A DNA stretch of 64,000 nucleotides, from NCBI RefSeq assembly GCF_900143685.1, contig NZ_LT671675.1, forward strand, positions 843,111 to 907,110. The letters run 5' to 3'. The DNA comes from Parolsenella massiliensis. Its GTDB lineage: Bacteria > Actinomycetota > Coriobacteriia > Coriobacteriales > Atopobiaceae. Made by a program: the position numbers and the translations under genes. The notes beneath the pieces are model-generated. The model did no database searches, was not told the origin of the DNA, and saw only the letters and a program-made list of their open reading frames with translations. Positions 5,050 to 55,425 of the stretch are shown here, one piece after another (positions within the stretch are counted from its first letter, which is position 1; the number at the start of each line of letters is the position of its first letter).

Positions 5050-6018
5050 CTACTCGGGGAAGGCAAGCTCGGCGGGAACCGGGTGCTTCGGGTTCGTGCG
5101 GGGGCTCTCGGGGGCGTAGTGGCTGAGGCCGTCCACGATGAGGTTGTTGACGCCCGCGAGGACGATCGCATCCCAGTGGGTCACGCTCTGCGCGATGACC
5201 TCGCCGTCCACCTGCATGGGGATGGGCTCAGAGGCGGTGATGGAGATCGAGGCCCCTCGGAACGTCTCGAGCGTGGGCCTTCCGAGCTTGCCCTTGGGGT
5301 CGAGAAGGCCCGAGAGCAAGGGGCGGATGAGCTCGGCGGTGCGGCTCACCTCGAGCACGATGACGTCGAGCTGGCCGTCGTCCATCGTGCAGCCGGGGAC
5401 GATCTCCATGTCGAGCTGGATCATGGCGTTGTTGGCCACGAGGCAGGCGATGCCGTCGCACTCGTGGGTCACGCCGTCGACCTCGATGACGTAGTGGACT
5501 ACGCGCGGGTTGGGGTCCGAGAGGGCCGCCATGAAGTAGGCCGCCTCGCCCATGGCCCGCTTGTTGGGCGCGGCGGCGCTCATGAGCTCGGCGTCAAAGC
5601 CGGTACCCGCCATGATGGAGAATCCCCGCGTGAAGGACGTGCCACCCACGCTCCACGTGGCCTCTCCCAGGTCGCAGGAGGCAACGTTGGCCCACCTGCA
5701 GGCACGCGCCAGCGCGGCCGGCTCGGGCGAGTTCCCGATGTTGGCAAACAGCAGGTTGGCCGTGCCCGAGGGGAACACGCACGTGTCCACCCCGCGGCCG
5801 CGAAGCGTGTACAGGAGGTTCGAGACCGTGCCGTCTCCGCCGGAGATCACGACGACGTCGAAGCTCTCCGCGTCCTCAAGGAGCTGCTCGTTGTCGCAAT
5901 CCTCTCCCAGGACGCGCAGGACGCACTCGTCGCCCGCATGCACGAGCTCGCGCTCGAAGGCGAACACGGCGTCCGAGCCAAAGCCCGAGCGTGGATTATG
6001 TACGATGAGGCAGCGCAT
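5050..6018 (-). CDS. Diacylglycerol kinase-family lipid kinase
   Basis: A 322-residue protein of the DAGK catalytic-domain family (DgkB/YegS/LCB5 type). It begins MRCLIVHNPRSGFG, the usual 'NP.sG' strand, and carries VVISGGDGTVSNLLYTL, the GGDGT nucleotide-binding loop, followed by CVFPSGTANLLFANIG, matching 'P.GT.Ndfa'. The C-terminal half holds the beta-sandwich with VDGEVIAQ near the end. It probably phosphorylates a lipid such as diacylglycerol to recycle it into phospholipid; the exact lipid cannot be read from the sequence. Start ATG at 6018 is preceded by AGGAGGATACC. Its 5' end faces the RNase D gene across a short divergent gap. Confidence 0.85.
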   Translation of the reverse strand: MRCLIVHNPRSGFGSDAVFAFERELVHAGDECVLRVLGEDCDNEQLLEDAESFDVVVISGGDGTVSNLLYTLRGRGVDTCVFPSGTANLLFANIGNSPEPAALARACRWANVASCDLGEATWSVGGTSFTRGFSIMAGTGFDAELMSAAAPNKRAMGEAAYFMAALSDPNPRVVHYVIEVDGVTHECDGIACLVANNAMIQLDMEIVPGCTMDDGQLDVIVLEVSRTAELIRPLLSGLLDPKGKLGRPTLETFRGASISITASEPIPMQVDGEVIAQSVTHWDAIVLAGVNNLIVDGLSHYAPESPRTNPKHPVPAELAFPE

Positions 6019-6112
6019 GGTATCCTCCTGTCTGCGTGCAAAGCGCACGCATGCCATGGTAGCCGATTTCGCCCCGCGCCCGCGATCGCGCCTGGGGCTG
6101 AGAGGTCCGTCG

Positions 6113-7246
6113 TTGTTCATCTCCACGTATGAGGAGCTCGAGCGCTTCTGCGAGCGTGCGTCCTCCTGCCCGGTCCTTGCCGTCGATACGGAGTTCCTTC
6201 GCGAGCGCACGTATCGCCCCAAGCTCTGCCTCATCCAGCTCGCCACCTCCGCCGATGACATCGTGGCGGTCGACCCCATCGCCATCACCGACCTCACGCC
6301 CATAGCGCGCCTGTTCAAGGACCCCTCGATCGTGAAGGTCATCCATGCCTGCTCCCAGGACCTCGAGGTGATCGACGGTGCCATGGGCTGCGTTCCCACG
6401 CCCATGTTCGACACGCAGCTCGCGGCGGCGTTTCTCGGGCACAGGATGCAGCTGGGCTATGGCGCGCTCGTCGAGAGCTACACGGGCGTGCACCTTGCCA
6501 AGGCCGAGAGCCTCACGGACTGGTCACGCCGCCCGCTTGACCCCGAGCAGCTCGTCTACGCCGAGGACGACGTACGCTACCTGCCGGGCATCTATGAGCA
6601 GATGCGCGCCGAGCTCATCGAGCGCGACCGCCTGTCCATGGTGCTTCCCGAGATGCAGGCGCTGCTCGACCCCTCCCACTACCGTCATGATCCCATGCGG
6701 GCGTATCTGCACCTCAAGCGCGTGAGCTCGCTCACCAAGCGTCAGCTCGCCGTGGCGCGCGAGGCCTGCGCGTGGCGCGAGAAGCTCGCGGCCAAGCGAG
6801 ACATCCCGCGCAAGTGGGTCCTGTCCGACGAGGTCCTCGTGGAGGTGTGCCGCCGCATGCCCGCAGACGAGCAGCGCCTTCGCAGGATTCGCGGCACCGA
6901 GCAGCTCTCCGAGCGCGACTCCGCCGCGCTTCTGCATGCCGTCTCCCGAGGTCTCTCGTGCCCTGCGGACAAGTATCCGAGCGTCCCCAGGCGCTCGAGG
7001 CCCTCGGGCGAGCAGGAGAGCGTCGTGGACCTCATGTACGCGATGCTTCGCATCATCTCCGAGCGCACGGGCGTTGCCACGCAGCTCATCGCCACGCGAG
7101 ACGAGCTGCTCGAGTTCATGTCCGGTACCGACGGCGCTGCGCTTGGCCAGGGTTGGCGCTACGAGCTTGCCGGCAGGCAGCTCGAGGGTCTGCTTTCCGG
7201 CTCGTGTGGCCTCACCGTGAAGGACGGGCGCGTCGAGATTCTCTAG
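6113..7246 (+). CDS. rnd: Ribonuclease D (3'-5' exoribonuclease with HRDC domain)
   Basis: DEDD-family exoribonuclease that trims tRNA 3' ends. The N-terminal exonuclease domain shows LAVDTEFLRERTY (motif I, Asp-x-Glu), VIHACSQDLEVID (motif II) and YAEDDVRYLPGIYEQM (motif III). An HRDC-type helical region follows (about residues 190-280: HLKRVSSLTKRQLAVAREACAWRE). The chosen start is TTG at 6113, which gives the family-typical N-terminus (MFISTYEELERFC...) and has GAGAGG seven bases upstream. An in-frame ATG at 6056 would add 19 residues but has no ribosome site; earlier ATGs run into the divergent gene. Length from TTG is 377 residues, normal for RNase D. Confidence 0.88.
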   Translation: MFISTYEELERFCERASSCPVLAVDTEFLRERTYRPKLCLIQLATSADDIVAVDPIAITDLTPIARLFKDPSIVKVIHACSQDLEVIDGAMGCVPTPMFDTQLAAAFLGHRMQLGYGALVESYTGVHLAKAESLTDWSRRPLDPEQLVYAEDDVRYLPGIYEQMRAELIERDRLSMVLPEMQALLDPSHYRHDPMRAYLHLKRVSSLTKRQLAVAREACAWREKLAAKRDIPRKWVLSDEVLVEVCRRMPADEQRLRRIRGTEQLSERDSAALLHAVSRGLSCPADKYPSVPRRSRPSGEQESVVDLMYAMLRIISERTGVATQLIATRDELLEFMSGTDGAALGQGWRYELAGRQLEGLLSGSCGLTVKDGRVEIL

Positions 7247-7331
7247 GCTCTCGAGGCGGGCGTCGTTGGCGTCTCGTTAGTGTCCGGTAGTGGGTACATA
7301 CTTTCCCAAGTCGGCGACGGAAGGCGGTCTT

Positions 7332-24454: not shown

Positions 24455-24511
24455 ACGAAAAAGGCCCCGTTGCCGGGGCCTTGTGCGAGCGCATGGTGCT
24501 CTCTGTGGGAT
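24455..24511 (-). repeat. Duplicate of the tRNA-Arg terminator plus tRNA 3' end (copy 1)
   Basis: 57 bases identical except for one base to 24645-24701, at an offset of 190. It contains a complete terminator hairpin (on minus, with TTTTT) and the final 28 bases of the tRNA-Arg gene including CCA. Homology stops abruptly inside the T-loop, after GTGGGAT, so this copy is a tRNA fragment and not a gene. Confidence 0.85.
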
Positions 24512-24644
24512 GTCCGCGTCCCCGCTGCGCGAGCCCGCGTGCGCTTCGGTGCTCCGCCCCTCGCGCGCCTCGCCGGGAAACGCTCGCGCGTTTCCTCGCC
24601 TCGGCCCCTGTCGGGTTCGAATCCCACCGCGCTGGGGCCGCCCT
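24512..24644. other. G+C-rich palindromic insert with an inverted tRNA T-arm fragment
   Basis: The 133 bases between the two 57-base direct repeats contain no supported gene. GGAAACGC (24576-24583) pairs with GCGTTTCC (24588-24595). At 24612-24627 the 16-mer CGGGTTCGAATCCCAC equals the T-arm of the neighbouring tRNA-Arg but in the opposite orientation. The start of copy 1's break (GTGGGAT) and this fragment (ATCCCAC) form an inverted pair. Reading frames here that resemble proteins are artefacts of the tRNA sequence. Confidence 0.7.
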
Positions 24645-24701
24645 ACGAAAAAGGCCCCGATGCCGGGGCCTTGTGCGAGCGCATGGTGCTCTCTGTGGGA
24701 T
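24645..24701 (-). repeat. tRNA-Arg terminator plus tRNA 3' end (copy 2, functional)
   Basis: Second copy of the 57-base direct repeat. Positions 24648-24672 form the rho-independent terminator of tRNA-Arg, read on minus as AAGGCCCCG-GCAT-CGGGGCCTT followed by TTT. Positions 24684-24701 are the 3' end of the intact tRNA gene. Confidence 0.85.
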
Positions 24702-24760
24702 TCGAACCCGCGACCTTTCGCTCCGGAGGCGAACGCTCTATCCAGCTGAGCTAAGAGAGC
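24684..24760 (-). tRNA. tRNA-Arg (CCG anticodon)
   Basis: 77 bases including an encoded CCA. The acceptor stem GCTCTCT/AGAGAGC is perfect. The D-arm is GCTC-AGCTGGATA-GAGC. The anticodon arm TTCGC-CTCCGGA-GCGAA has CCG at positions 34-36, reading CGG arginine codons. The T-loop is TTCGAAT. The T-stem (GCGGG/CCCAC) has one C-A mismatch at its second pair, which is unusual but tolerable. A promoter lies upstream and an intrinsic terminator downstream. Confidence 0.95.
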
Positions 24761-35736: not shown

Positions 35737-37767
35737 ATGAGCACGGGTACCATTCTGCTCATAGGGGCCATCGTCATCGCTGCGGCGGTTGCCGTCGTGG
35801 CCGTCCTGTTCCTGAGCCGTGGCGGCAATGGCTTCAAGTTCGACATCGGAGGCCAGGCCCCAAGGGCTGCCGGCGGCAACGACACTTCGGCAGAGACCAC
35901 CTTCAAGAGCCGATTCGTCGGGTTGGGCGTCTTCTCCGGATCGGTGCTCGGCGTCCTTCTCGCCCGGCTCTGGTCCATGCAGGTTGTCTCGGGCGACGAC
36001 TACACCAAGCAGGCTGAGTCCAACCGAACGAGGACCGTCACCACGGCGGCCCCGCGCGGTCGCATCCTGGACAGAAACGGCGTGGAGCTCGTGACGAACC
36101 GCCCGAGCCTCACCATCTGCGCCATGAGCGACATCGCAGACAACGCCATCGAGCTCAACGTTTTGTCGGCGCTGCTCGGCATTCCGTCGGTGGCGGCGAA
36201 GCGCCGCGCCACGGACTCCACGCAGAGTGCCCAGAGCGCAAGGACCGTGGCCGTTGACGCCACGCGCTCTGCGGTCGCCTTCATTCAGGAGCACACCGAC
36301 GTGTTCCCCGACGTGACCGTCGAGACGAGGACGCAGCGCTCCTACCCCCAGGGCGAGGTCGCCGCCCAGGTGCTTGGCTACACGGGCACCGTCACGCAGG
36401 ACCAGATCGACGCCTCGGCAGACGCCAACGGCGGTATCACCTACGAGAGCGGCGACACGACGGGCCAGGCCGGCGTGGAGTACCAGTACGAGGAGCTTCT
36501 CCAGGGCGTTCGCGGCGAGCAGACCGTCTACGTCGATGTTCACGGAAACGTCCTCGATTACTCGACGTCCGTTCCCGCCGAGAGCGGCTCGGACATCATG
36601 CTCACGATCGACCTTGACATCCAGAAGGCCGCGGAGGAGGCCCTCGTCGCCCAGATCAAGAAGCGGCAGGACGCCGGCGTAAAGGAGTGCACCTCCGGCG
36701 CCGCCATCGTCCTGGACGCCACGAACGGCGAGGTGCTCGCCATGGCGAGTGCGCCGCTCTTCAGGCCCGAGGTGTTCGTCGGCGGCATCTCGCAGGACGA
36801 CTGGGACGTGCTCTCGGCCGACAACGCGGGAAACCCGCTCATGAACAAGGCCGTGAGCGGCCAGTACGTGGCGGCCTCCACCATAAAGCCGCTCACGACC
36901 TTTGCCGCGCTCGACTACGGCATCGCCACTCCGCAGACGACGTATGACTGCACCGGCTGGTGGACGGGCTTTGGAGACGCCTTCGGCAAGTACTGCTGGA
37001 ACACGAAGGGCCATGGCTACCTCGACCTGAGGGGCGGCATCGTGAACTCGTGCGACGTGGTCTTCTACGAGGTCGCCAAGGGGTTCTACAACGCCGGCGA
37101 CAAGTCGGACGGCATGCAGGACACGTTCAGGAAGTGGGGCCTGGGCTCCACGACGGGCATCGACCTGCCCAGCGAGTCGGCCGGACGCGTCCCCGACGCT
37201 GAGTGGAAGTGGAACTACTTCTCGAACTGGTCCGATGCGGACCGCCAGTGGAACGGCGGCGACTACACGAACATCGCCATCGGCCAGGGCGACATCGCCG
37301 TGACGCCGCTTCAGATAGCCTGCGTCTACATGGGCATCGCCAATCGCGGCACCATCTGGCGCCCGCATGTGCTCAAGAGCGTCATCGGCAGGGGAGACAA
37401 CGGCACGGCCCGCGAGTACGAGCCCTCCGCCTCCCTGAGCCCCGAGGAGAGCAGCTCGAACTACGATCTCGTCATCTCCGGCCTGGACGGCGTGGTCTAT
37501 GAGGAGAGCGAGTCGCAGTCGGCCCACTTCACGAACATGAAGGAGCGCGTGGCGGGCAAGACCGGCTCGGGCGAGCACGGCGAGTACCCTACGAGCTGGT
37601 TTTGCTGCTTCGCGCCAGAGGACGACCCCAAGTACGTCGTCGCGGTCGCGGTCGAGAAGGGCGGCTACGGCGGCTCGTGCGCCCTGTACGTGGCCCGAGA
37701 CATTCTCGGCGCGATCTATGGCGAGCCGGACACCCAGACGTCCGAGGTCCAGGACACCTCGAGGTAG
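35737..37767 (+). CDS. mrdA: Penicillin-binding protein 2 (class B transpeptidase, elongasome)
   Basis: 676 residues. The pedestal domain includes RGRILDRNGVELVTNRPSL and YPQGEVAAQVLGYTG. The transpeptidase motifs are ASTIKPL (S-x-x-K), NSCDVVFYEV (S-x-D, as in E. coli PBP2) and AGKTGSGE (KTG). It crosslinks lateral-wall peptidoglycan with RodA. Unusually there are two hydrophobic N-terminal segments, about residues 5-26 and 62-82, where PBP2 normally has one. With a basic loop between them, an N-out topology would keep the catalytic domain outside. Start ATG is 3 bases after mreD with AAGGG upstream. Confidence 0.92.
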   Translation: MSTGTILLIGAIVIAAAVAVVAVLFLSRGGNGFKFDIGGQAPRAAGGNDTSAETTFKSRFVGLGVFSGSVLGVLLARLWSMQVVSGDDYTKQAESNRTRTVTTAAPRGRILDRNGVELVTNRPSLTICAMSDIADNAIELNVLSALLGIPSVAAKRRATDSTQSAQSARTVAVDATRSAVAFIQEHTDVFPDVTVETRTQRSYPQGEVAAQVLGYTGTVTQDQIDASADANGGITYESGDTTGQAGVEYQYEELLQGVRGEQTVYVDVHGNVLDYSTSVPAESGSDIMLTIDLDIQKAAEEALVAQIKKRQDAGVKECTSGAAIVLDATNGEVLAMASAPLFRPEVFVGGISQDDWDVLSADNAGNPLMNKAVSGQYVAASTIKPLTTFAALDYGIATPQTTYDCTGWWTGFGDAFGKYCWNTKGHGYLDLRGGIVNSCDVVFYEVAKGFYNAGDKSDGMQDTFRKWGLGSTTGIDLPSESAGRVPDAEWKWNYFSNWSDADRQWNGGDYTNIAIGQGDIAVTPLQIACVYMGIANRGTIWRPHVLKSVIGRGDNGTAREYEPSASLSPEESSSNYDLVISGLDGVVYEESESQSAHFTNMKERVAGKTGSGEHGEYPTSWFCCFAPEDDPKYVVAVAVEKGGYGGSCALYVARDILGAIYGEPDTQTSEVQDTSR

Positions 37768-37776
37768 GGAGGCGAC

Positions 37777-38988
37777 ATGGCACAGAACTCAGCAGGAGGC
37801 GTGGGATTCGGAAGCGTCGTCTCGTCGCTGTTCGGCGGCGAGGCGGGCAAGAAGCCCGGTGCCGCCCGCGTTCCCAGCCGCGGCGGCGCGCTGTCAAACA
37901 TCTACTGGGCAAACCTCATACCGGCGCTTCTGCTCATCGTCTATGGGCTCATAGTCGTGTGGAGCGCCTCGCTCTCGAACGCCAACGCCTCGCTCTCGCG
38001 CCAGGCGTTCGGTGCCGTCATGGGCCTCGCGCTGGCTGCGCTCATCTGGCATTGGGACTACCGCTCGCTCGCGGGCATGTCCACGTGGCTGCTCGTCATC
38101 GACGTCATCATCATGATCTCGCCCAGAATCCCGGGCCTGGCTTCGGCCGCGAACGGCATGACCGGCTGGGTCAAGCTCGGTCCCCTGCGCTTCCAGCCGT
38201 CCGAGATCGGCAAGCTCGTCACGATCTTCCTCATGGCGTCTCTGTGCGCGCAGTACAACGGGCGCATCAAGGAGCTTCGCGACTACGTGAAGCTGTGCGC
38301 CACGCTGCTCGTTCCGTTTGCCGCCATCATGTGCCAGCCAGACCTCGGCACCGGCCTCATCCTCATCGTGACCGGCGCTGCCATCATCATCTGCGCGGGC
38401 GCGAGGGCAGACTGGGTCGTCATCACGCTCATCATGTTCGTCGTGGGGTGCGCGCTCATCATCTTCGTGTCACTCAACTTTGGCTTCCCGCTCAAGCAGT
38501 ACCAGCTGAACCGCCTTCTCGTCTTCGCGGACTCGAGCCTCGAGTCGACGAGCGCCGGTTACAACCTCCAGCAGGCAAAGATCGCGGTGGGCTCAGGAGG
38601 CCTTTTTGGCAAGGGCATCGGCGCCGCCACGCAGTCTGCCGGAGGCTTTCTCCCCGAGAACCACACCGACTTCATCTTCGCCCGCCTCTCCGAGGAGTTT
38701 GGCTTTGCCGGGGCGGCCCTGCTGCTTGCGCTCTACGCCTGGCTCATCTTCTCGGCGCTTCGGCTCGCCATGAAGCTTGATGCCCCGTTTGCCAAGCTCG
38801 TCCTTGCCGGCATTGTGGCCATGTGGAGCTACCAGCTGCTGCAAAACGTGGGCATGTGCATCGGCATCATGCCCATCACAGGCATTCCGCTCCCGTTCAT
38901 CAGCTACGGAGCGACGTCGATGGTCGTTCAGGTCGCAAGCGTGGGAATAGTACAGTCCGTATACGCGCATCGAACCAAGTCTGCGTAG
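37777..38988 (+). CDS. rodA: Rod shape-determining protein RodA (SEDS glycosyltransferase)
   Basis: 403 residues with about ten membrane segments after a 40-residue hydrophilic N-terminus. SEDS motifs include GWVKLGPLRFQPSEIGKLVTIFLMASLCAQ, CQPDLGTGLILIVTG, AVGSGGLFGKGIGAATQSAGGFLPENHTDFIFARLSEEFGF and IPLPFISYGATSMVVQVASVG. It polymerises lipid II together with PBP2. ATG follows GGGAGGCGAC, 9 bases after PBP2. RodA, not FtsW, is favoured by its position in the mre cluster next to PBP2. Confidence 0.93.
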   Translation: MAQNSAGGVGFGSVVSSLFGGEAGKKPGAARVPSRGGALSNIYWANLIPALLLIVYGLIVVWSASLSNANASLSRQAFGAVMGLALAALIWHWDYRSLAGMSTWLLVIDVIIMISPRIPGLASAANGMTGWVKLGPLRFQPSEIGKLVTIFLMASLCAQYNGRIKELRDYVKLCATLLVPFAAIMCQPDLGTGLILIVTGAAIIICAGARADWVVITLIMFVVGCALIIFVSLNFGFPLKQYQLNRLLVFADSSLESTSAGYNLQQAKIAVGSGGLFGKGIGAATQSAGGFLPENHTDFIFARLSEEFGFAGAALLLALYAWLIFSALRLAMKLDAPFAKLVLAGIVAMWSYQLLQNVGMCIGIMPITGIPLPFISYGATSMVVQVASVGIVQSVYAHRTKSA

Positions 38989-53328: not shown

Positions 53329-55425
53329 ATGGCTCAGACCAAGGATTTTCTGCTCGAGATTGGTTGCGAGGAGATGCCCTCCGCCCCTCTCATCAACGCT
53401 TCCAAGCAGCTTCCCAAGCTTGTCGAGAAGGCCCTCGACGCGGCAGGCCTCGCCCATGGCGAGATTCGCGTGATCTCCTCCCCGCGCCGCCTCGTGGCCC
53501 TCGTCGCAGACGTCGCCGTTGAGACCGAGGCCATCCACGAGGTCATGCGTGGTCCCAAGACGCAGATCGCCTTCGATGCCGAGGGCAACCCGACCAAGGC
53601 CGCCCAGGGCTTTGCCCGCAAGTGTGGCATTGACGCCTCCGAGCTCGACCGTCGCGTCGCCGAGGATGGCAACGAGTACGTCTTTGCCGAGAAGAGCGTT
53701 CCGTCTGCGCCCGCCATGCCCATTCTGTCCGCCCTGGGCCATGACGTGATCGCCTCCATCGAGTGGCCCAACTACCGCTCGCAGCGCTGGGGCTCCGAGC
53801 ACGAGACCTTCGTGAGGCCCATCCGCTGGATCTGCTGCCTGCTCGGCTCCGAGGTCGTCCCGGTGACGTATGCGGACGTCAAGAGCGCAAACACCACCCG
53901 TGGCCACCGCGTGCTTGCCCCGGGCGAGCGCGTCGTTTCCGAGCCCGCCGCCTATGAGAAGGTGCTCGAGGACTGCCACGTCCTGTCTGCCGAGCGCCGC
54001 GAGGCTGCGATTCGCGAGGGCATCGCCAAGATCGAGGCCGAGCGCCCCGGCTCTCGCGTCGACACGCCCAAGCGTACCTTCGACGAGGTCGTGAACCTTT
54101 GCGAGTGGCCGACCGTCCTCGTGGGCACCTTTGACGAGGAGTTTCTCAAGGTCCCGCAGGAGATCATCTGCGAGTCCATGCTGTCCAACCAGCGCTACTT
54201 CCCGATCTTTGACGCCGCCGGCAAGCTCACGCGCGAGTTCGTGATCGTCTCCAATGCCGACCCCGCCGTCTCTGCGACGGTGGTCTCCGGCAACGAGCGC
54301 GTCGTGCGCCCGCGCCTCGATGACGCCAAGTTCTTCTACGAGGAGGACCTCAAGGTCTCGCTCGACACGTTCCGCGAGCGCCTGGCGAACGTCAAGTTCC
54401 AGCAGAAGCTCGGCAACGTGCTCCAGAAGTCCGAGCGCATCGAGAGCCTTGCACTTGCCATCACGCACGAGGCGCGCATCGGCGCCAAGCTCGCTGCCGC
54501 GAGCGCCCGCGCCGCGCACCTGTGCAAGGCCGACCTCGTCTCGAGCGCGGTCGTGGAGTTCACGAACCAGCAGGGCGTCATGGGTGGCTACTACGCCCTG
54601 GCCGCCGGCGAGGGCGAGGACGTGGCCGAGGGCATCCGCGACCACTATCGTCCGCGCTTTGCCGGAGACGAGCTTCCCGAGGGCACCTGCGGCTGCGTCG
54701 TTGCCGTTGCCGACAAGCTCGACACCATCGCCGGCATGTTCGCCATCGGCGAGCCGCCCACCGGCTCCAAGGACCCCTACGCCCTTCGCCGTGCCGCCAT
54801 CGGCGTCGTGACGATTCTTCGCGACCGCCTGCACATCGGCTACGAGCCGCTCGTCGCCTCTGCGCTCGAGGCGCTCGCCGATCAGGGCATCGAGTTCGAC
54901 GCCGAGAAGGTCGCCGCGGACGTTGACGCCTTCATCTTGGGTCGCATGCAGCAGATGGCCCGCGAGAACGGCATCTCCGCAGACACGGTGGCCGCCGTCA
55001 GCGCCGGCAGCGTCACGGCCCCCGACGACTTCTTCGCCCTGGCGCACGCCCTCGAGGACGCGCGTGCCAACGACCCCGAGACGTTCGAGAACCTCGCCGT
55101 TGCCTATGCCCGTGCGGCTCACCTTGCCGACGCCTCGCTGGGCGTCGAGCTTGACGAATCGCTCATGGGCGACGAGGAGAAGGCGCTTGCCCAGGCCGTC
55201 GCCGCCTCTCGCTCCGCCATCGACTCCGCGCTCGAGGACAAGAGGCTCGACGAGGTCATCGGCCAGCTCGCGGCGCTTCGCGAGCCGATCGACGCCTTTT
55301 TTGCCGCCGTCATGGTCATGGACGAGGACGTCGCCCTGCGTCAGAACAGGCTGCGCCTGCTCAACAACCTCGTTGACGTGTTCTCCGGCATCGCCAACAT
55401 CGGCGAGCTCGCGCGCAAGAAGTAG
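53329..55425 (+). CDS. glyS: Glycine--tRNA ligase, beta subunit
   Basis: 698 residues. FLLEIGCEEMPSAPLINASKQLPKLVEKAL opens it, then SPRRLVALVADVAV, FVRPIRWICCLLGSEVVPVTYADVKSANTTRGHR, LCEWPTVLVGTFDEEFLKVPQEIICESMLSNQRYFPIFDAAGKLTREFVIVSN and RPRLDDAKFFYEEDLKVSL. The C-terminal part has the HD-like and anticodon-binding regions. It binds tRNA-Gly and completes the synthetase with GlyQ. Gene order lepB-glyQ-glyS is tight. Confidence 0.96.
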   Translation: MAQTKDFLLEIGCEEMPSAPLINASKQLPKLVEKALDAAGLAHGEIRVISSPRRLVALVADVAVETEAIHEVMRGPKTQIAFDAEGNPTKAAQGFARKCGIDASELDRRVAEDGNEYVFAEKSVPSAPAMPILSALGHDVIASIEWPNYRSQRWGSEHETFVRPIRWICCLLGSEVVPVTYADVKSANTTRGHRVLAPGERVVSEPAAYEKVLEDCHVLSAERREAAIREGIAKIEAERPGSRVDTPKRTFDEVVNLCEWPTVLVGTFDEEFLKVPQEIICESMLSNQRYFPIFDAAGKLTREFVIVSNADPAVSATVVSGNERVVRPRLDDAKFFYEEDLKVSLDTFRERLANVKFQQKLGNVLQKSERIESLALAITHEARIGAKLAAASARAAHLCKADLVSSAVVEFTNQQGVMGGYYALAAGEGEDVAEGIRDHYRPRFAGDELPEGTCGCVVAVADKLDTIAGMFAIGEPPTGSKDPYALRRAAIGVVTILRDRLHIGYEPLVASALEALADQGIEFDAEKVAADVDAFILGRMQQMARENGISADTVAAVSAGSVTAPDDFFALAHALEDARANDPETFENLAVAYARAAHLADASLGVELDESLMGDEEKALAQAVAASRSAIDSALEDKRLDEVIGQLAALREPIDAFFAAVMVMDEDVALRQNRLRLLNNLVDVFSGIANIGELARKK

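Follow-up and report, generated by a model that had tools for sequence, protein, structure and literature searches.

The tRNA-Arg(CCG) gene of Parolsenella massiliensis raises the question of how the 3' end of a tRNA gene came to be present twice around a short insert. The 3' ends of tRNA genes are classic landing sites of phages and islands. In the window analyzed here, a stretch of 64,000 nucleotides of the genome, a preliminary description had noted a direct repeat, one copy of which ends inside the T-loop, together with an inverted T-arm and a palindrome in the insert, and had read the arrangement either as the scar of an integrated and lost element or as a mobile tRNA-derived repeat. These observations were reproduced. 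The 57-nt repeat (24455-24511 and 24645-24701, one mismatch, 190 bp from start to start) is present, ARAGORN finds the tRNA gene, the inverted T-arm at 24612-24627 is complementary at 16/16 positions, and the boundary in the T-loop lies exactly at tRNA nt 59. The palindrome corresponds to the hairpin GGAAACGC-GCGA-GCGTTTCC in the insert (24512-24644, 133 bp).

Table 1. Features of the tRNA-Arg(CCG) locus of P. massiliensis (positions in the window)
Feature	Position	Strand	Remarks
tRNA-Arg(CCG), host gene of the insertion	24684..24760	-	Intact, CCA end; ARAGORN; Rfam tRNA 65.1 bits
tRNA-Arg nt 59-76, proximal copy of the duplicated 3' tail	24684..24701	-	ATCCCACAGAGAGCACCA
Trailer and intrinsic terminator, proximal	24645..24683	-	GGCCCCGGCATCGGGGCCTTTTT
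Spacer between terminator and inverted T-arm	24629..24644	-	16 nt; varies between copies
Inverted copy of the local T-arm	24612..24628	-	GGTGGGATTCGAACCCG
Core	24512..24611	-	~100 nt, covarying hairpins
Distal direct copy of tRNA-Arg nt 59-76	24494..24511	-	18/18
Trailer and terminator, distal	24455..24493	-	1 mismatch relative to the proximal copy

Read in the tRNA sense, the locus consists of the tRNA, trailer and terminator, spacer, inverted T-arm, core, nt 59-76 again, a second trailer with terminator, and a DAHP synthase gene (Table 1). The distal trailer and terminator (to 24455) join the region upstream of this gene, whose start codon lies at ~24364 on the minus strand. The fold is closed by pairing between the outer half of the inverted T-arm and the distal copy of the T-stem, and the covariance model match at this locus covers 24506-24628 (81.7 bits). 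The spacer may be what is left of an inverted copy of the tRNA 3' end that was once longer. The repeating unit is composed of tRNA nt 59-76, trailer, terminator, spacer, inverted T-arm and core, and it sits between tRNA nt 58 and 59, leaving the tRNA intact with a spare 3' tail downstream. Elsewhere in the window, model R1 (see below) gave a weak match at 54800-54907 (18.4 bits, E 0.17), most likely by chance.

A search of the same genome (2.0 Mb, one contig) with the Arg region revealed one further strong match behind tRNA-Glu(UUC), with 84% identity over 255 bp. There, the Glu tail and terminator are duplicated, not those of Arg, and the Arg and Glu cores of this genome are mutual nearest neighbours (0.89). 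Among its 51 tRNAs, only Arg(CCG) and Glu(UUC) have a tail copy (at least 17/18) close downstream and outside another tRNA gene. For the remaining tRNAs, which served as the control, the best downstream tail match was 12/17 when neighbouring tRNA genes were excepted. Thus, the duplication at tRNA-Arg is not a chance resemblance. The corresponding site is empty in a genome of the same genus (G001), where a single terminator separates tRNA-Arg(CCG) from the same DAHP synthase gene and the insert is missing, and a covariance model search of G001 found no copy anywhere. The empty site indicates either a joint origin of insert and duplication in one lineage or their loss from the other.

The same architecture was present behind many tRNA types in two genomes from another family of the order. 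A covariance model built from 19 copies (R1) matched 61 of the 247 genomes of the order Coriobacteriales, with ten or more matches each in many Collinsella genomes even though no more than 14 candidates per genome were scored; 10-15 copies are common in this genus. The weak R1 matches in other families, all but L269, show the tail copy (14 to 17/17) and the inverted T-arm (10 to 11/11). A second model (R2), derived from eight of these weak loci, matched 79/247 genomes and 38/99 genera of the order. In a held-out test, all 26 R2 loci with a readable tRNA showed tail copy and inverted T-arm (a few of these loci had been seen previously). A scan of 84,980 species genomes with the exact core pattern returned 70 stretches whose titles all name Collinsella, Coriobacteriaceae or Candidatus Limicola, and outside Coriobacteriales R1 had zero matches among 346 genomes sampled from the phylum. 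The insert almost certainly belongs to a family of structured repeats that is dispersed and takes its ends from the local tRNA.

In total, 131 pooled copies have an intact architecture, and they follow 24 tRNA types (by anticodon); a further copy follows tmRNA (L192). Model matches in named contigs mostly follow a same-strand tRNA (72/82), predominantly at 47-67 nt, and of the remaining loci the four that were read proved to lie behind truncated tRNA 3' ends. Copies behind such truncated ends (L118, L124, L144 and L149; tRNA-Lys and probably tRNA-Glu) look as if other integrative elements had hit the same tRNA and displaced the array. In genome G130, 14 of the 15 matches follow tRNAs and one follows the tmRNA gene ssrA; this last copy (L192) has an inverted tmRNA T-arm and a degenerate tail copy. 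Most copies lie 3' of a terminator, and tails and second units decay and truncate in some of them. The distribution is patchy even within one genus, with two copies in P. massiliensis (G000) and none in G001. Other short palindromes were seen at the distal array ends of four Collinsella loci (L062, L072, L074 and L104), for example CATGACAG...CTGTCATG and GACAAGTTTGTACC...CTTGTCG, which are probably REP-type repeats.

Comparison with Rfam identified the tRNA alone at gathering scores, the other low-threshold matches staying below their cut-offs. A plasmid collection gave chiefly tRNA-gene matches and one Collinsella aerofaciens record that matches the core. No match to the element was found in the phage collection searched, a second scan of viral sequences with a pattern was empty, and the one viral contig matched carries a prophage adjoining a host copy. 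Carriage as phage cargo was rejected on these results. This contig (L111, IMGVR_UViG_2921084881_000004; 5602-7281 and 7069-7184) has a large serine recombinase whose end meets the 3' end of a tRNA-Lys with the repeat copy directly after it, and the proximal trailer differs from the distal one.

Across the family, the core alone is common to copies at different tRNAs, and the tail and the inverted T-arm are local. The T-loop variants among the copies include TTCGAATCC, TTCGATTCC, TTCGAGTCC, TTCGAACCC, TTCAAGTCC and others, and in 93 of 96 non-identical copies the inverted 9-mer is reverse-complementary to the variant of the local tRNA. Shuffling gave 28 on average and reached 93 in 0 of 10000 trials. 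For the direct copy, local identity is 0.57 before nt 59 and 1.00 at nt 59 (0.43 when shuffled), and the sequence is local from there onward. In the inverted copy, nt 59, 60 and 64 are informative and match the local tRNA, and nt 51-64 as a whole are consistent with a local origin. Ordinarily, tRNA loci lack an inverted T-arm: element-free tRNAs mostly score 6-9/11. The trailers are more variable: they are duplicated (at least 20/25 identical) in about half of the copies, and proximal and distal trailers appear unrelated (at most 11/25) in about a third. A transposon or MITE with a fixed target duplication was rejected because the ends of the element change with the local tRNA and the direct repeat consists of the tail, with the trailer in about half of the copies. 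A minority of copies contain longer inverted segments. L071 has a perfect inverted copy of 46 nt that extends to the terminator, those of L253 and L078 are long and degenerate, and that of L264 is likewise long. At L255 (tRNA-Arg(CCU), G130), an inverted stretch reaches back to ~nt 40 of the tRNA and the standard core is missing; this locus may represent the copying step in isolation.

For 59 of 85 copies with a known genome, the nearest core sits at another tRNA type. The cores behind tRNA-Arg(CCU) in G204 and tRNA-Gly(CCC) in Collinsella tanakaei ET10 (L131) are 97% identical, while their inverted T-arms differ (GGATTCG in one, GGACTCG in the other) and each tail is that of its own tRNA. Near-identical cores with correct local ends at different tRNAs imply a moving core whose flanks are formed anew from the target. 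The moving part is the core between TCGAACC and CGA, and from these sequence comparisons we consider it very probable that cores have moved between tRNA types. A guide specific to a tRNA type, by which the element would land where its inverted T-arm already matches, is disfavoured by the near-identical cores at different T-loop variants with local ends at both. Tandem units behind one tRNA can belong to different subfamilies (L064, L067), and G185 contains three tandem units, 187 bp apart, behind tRNA-Val. No gene linked to the element was found. The constant site and the local 3'-end copies across the order point to a mobile element without a known mover.

The fold is closed by the inverted T-arm and the T-stem copy, and the R1 consensus contains two further hairpins and that of R2 a third. 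Changes on both sides were observed in 20 of 27 pairs, and the covariation score was 0.391 compared to 0.135 for shuffled and 0.039-0.092 for slid partners. Helix 1 covaries in part because both of its sides track the local tRNA, on which the variation of the inner helices does not depend. A joint alignment of highly divergent cores (A2), which looks unreliable, was left out of the structure analysis. For the two copies of P. massiliensis, RNA folding gave z values of -2.4 and -4.2 on the tRNA-sense strand and of -1.4 and -1.6 on the opposite strand. With DNA folding parameters the values were weaker, the copy in the window being barely different from shuffles. Rfam and ARAGORN searches for a tRNA in the core found only the host tRNA. 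Since the core is not tRNA-like and shifts between tRNA types, the earlier term "mobile tRNA-derived repeat" stands for mobility, and its tRNA origin applies to the flanks (tail copy and inverted T-arm), not to the core.

The explanation we favour, which as a whole appears rather probable, has two parts. The sequences show that the locus contains one member of a family of small structured repeats without genes, spread through the order and inserted in the T-loop of tRNA and tmRNA genes. More tentatively, the movement could proceed by copying with strand switching at T-arm sequences. DNA synthesis or repair would start or stall at the T-loop and run through the tail and terminator, and folding back at the terminator hairpin would allow copying back to the T-arm, producing the inverted copy. 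The centre of the resulting long palindrome would be trimmed later. A switch to a donor core via the conserved T-arm sequence GATTCGAACC would be followed by copying of the core, and a return switch to the tRNA via the T-loop sequence CGAxTCC by copying of the tail for a second time. Units once present could then grow or shrink as tandem repeats. The role of the conserved fold would lie in the single-stranded state, as donor or as the site for an enzyme. The combination of locally re-made flanks and a moving core is the main argument for copying over the insertion of a finished circle. Against it, pure template switching would require three switches per event, many times over at the same junction, which suggests that an enzyme takes part, and the long inverted segments are confined to a minority of copies.

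The main rival is a cassette moved by a site-specific recombinase, in which a single- or double-stranded circle of tail, trailer, terminator, inverted T-arm and core recombines at nt 58/59, in the manner of an integron cassette or of a phage integrase crossing over in the T-loop. Such an enzyme would act on the folded strand, in which pairing of the inverted T-arm with the T-stem copy offers a double-stranded site, as R''/R' do in attC. The junction fixed in the 7-nt T-loop with a regenerated tRNA would be explained in this way, as would the tandem arrays with adjacent units of different subfamilies and the triple array of G185. For the roughly one third of copies whose two trailers look unrelated, a unit that brought its own trailer by way of a recombinase is no worse an explanation than copying from the target. 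There is also a precedent in attP of phage Ms6, where strand exchange takes place in the 7-base T-loop of tRNA-Ala and can be retargeted via a changed core (PMC1762012). Tyrosine recombinase genes (PF00589) were present in 19/19 genomes checked, but genomes without the element have them too, so that they provide no diagnostic partner. A circle carrying the donor tail would create a chimeric, non-functional tRNA at another tRNA type, yet the tails and inverted T-arms observed are local, and we regard the recombinase as rather unlikely. Less likely still is a selected RNA gene or processed tRNA-linked RNA (RtT-like), which would spread mainly by homologous recombination at T-arm and tail, its mobility being incidental. 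Its strong covariation, the better RNA folding on the tRNA-sense strand, the order-wide persistence and the annotation of the E. coli counterpart as an sRNA agree with such a gene, but the position of most copies 3' of a terminator, the decay and truncation of tails and second units and the patchiness within the genus do not.

Two further explanations have little left to recommend them. Mobilization of a REP-like element by the RAYT (Y1) transposases of the same genomes is very improbable, even though several Collinsella rich in copies have RAYT-like genes, as does P. massiliensis, and these genes are missing in the copy-free G078, G024, G015 and G084. Genomes G183, G117 and G185 carry copies and have no Y1 gene at E 1e-5, which also speaks against membership in the IS200/IS605 and REP/RAYT groups, and no element copy was found near the six Y1 genes examined. 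RAYT/REP mobilization was thus rejected as not linked to the element. The RAYT-like transposase gene of P. massiliensis (L312, 923-1808; G000, 37222-38107) is flanked by a palindrome of its own, TTGACAAAGGGACAGTCCCTTTGTCAA, and apparently forms a separate REP system in this genome. The scar proposed in the preliminary description, which would amount to attL and attR with a deletion between them, retains almost no probability. Integration at a tRNA does leave a direct repeat running from T-loop to trailer, and prophages are found integrated at element-bearing tRNAs (L111, L118, L144). However, an att scar from a genomic island or prophage needs a unique residue derived from the lost element and has no inverted T-arm, whereas the "residue" here is a multicopy family with one conserved folded core and one layout at 24 tRNA types in dozens of species.

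The literature searched contained no description of tRNA-linked repeats in coriobacteria, and the family is apparently undescribed so far. Likewise, no description was found there of a gene-free element that moves among most tRNA types and re-makes its flanks locally. The family accounts for odd tRNA 3'-end duplications in Collinsella and poses a testable problem, namely what moves gene-free DNA and copies the target sequence in both orientations. Since both Collinsella and E. coli are in culture, strain comparisons and assays with marked tRNAs are feasible.

Several known systems share some of these features. MITEs, REP/RAYT, ERIC, RUP and the Rickettsia palindromic elements are also short, non-coding, palindromic and multicopy. 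In contrast to them, the coriobacterial element is strictly targeted to tRNA and tmRNA genes, carries a local inverted T-arm, duplicates a functional 3' end and has no constant ends. Mycobacteriophage Ms6 shares the use of the T-loop at a tRNA 3' end as the exchange site; it is, however, a phage with an integrase and a tRNA-Ala target, whereas the element is a 190-bp gene-free unit with many tRNA types and an inverted T-arm. Integron cassettes are small units arrayed behind a fixed site, and their attC sites fold as single strands with complementary terminal boxes. The element resembles them in its arrayed small units with a folded strand and complementary end boxes, but it has neither a linked integrase nor a gene, and its site is the tRNA T-loop.

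The closest layout is that of the E. coli tyrT locus, which contains 178-bp repeats beginning with the last 19 bp of tRNA-Tyr. In the K-12 sequence, repeat copies were found after tyrT, after tyrV and in tandem, all matched by the Rfam model RF00391 (rttR), with four matches (133-138 bits) at tyrT. E. coli genomes vary from 1 to 9 such places, 746 of 5426 genomes being without any RtT match, and a 175-bp VNTR is listed at the rtT RNA of Salmonella serovars (PMC2658671). Like the coriobacterial copies, the RtT repeats lie directly 3' of the tRNA, have a unit of ~180 bp, occur in tandem and contain a direct copy of the tRNA 3' end that starts in the T-loop (AATCCTTCCCCCACCACCA). An inverted local T-arm is present as well (19/22 nt), its score of 16 exceeding the best value from 300 shuffles (13.5 or 12), and the tail copy closes a fold with several hairpins. 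RF00391 gave no match up to E 5 with five coriobacterial copies (L001, L002, L053, L064 and L071), which are therefore not members of the RtT family, although the layout is shared. The two also differ in their targets, the E. coli matches being seen at tRNA-Tyr and the coriobacterial family being spread over 24 tRNA types and tmRNA. The family thus provides a comparative framework for the long-known, unexplained tyrT repeats. In our judgement the chances are evenly balanced that there is a distinct class of mobile DNA, in which structured cores without genes colonize genes for tRNA and tmRNA at nt 58/59 and form both ends anew from the tRNA entered, which remains functional; the RtT repeats would then be an unrecognized member of this class in another phylum.
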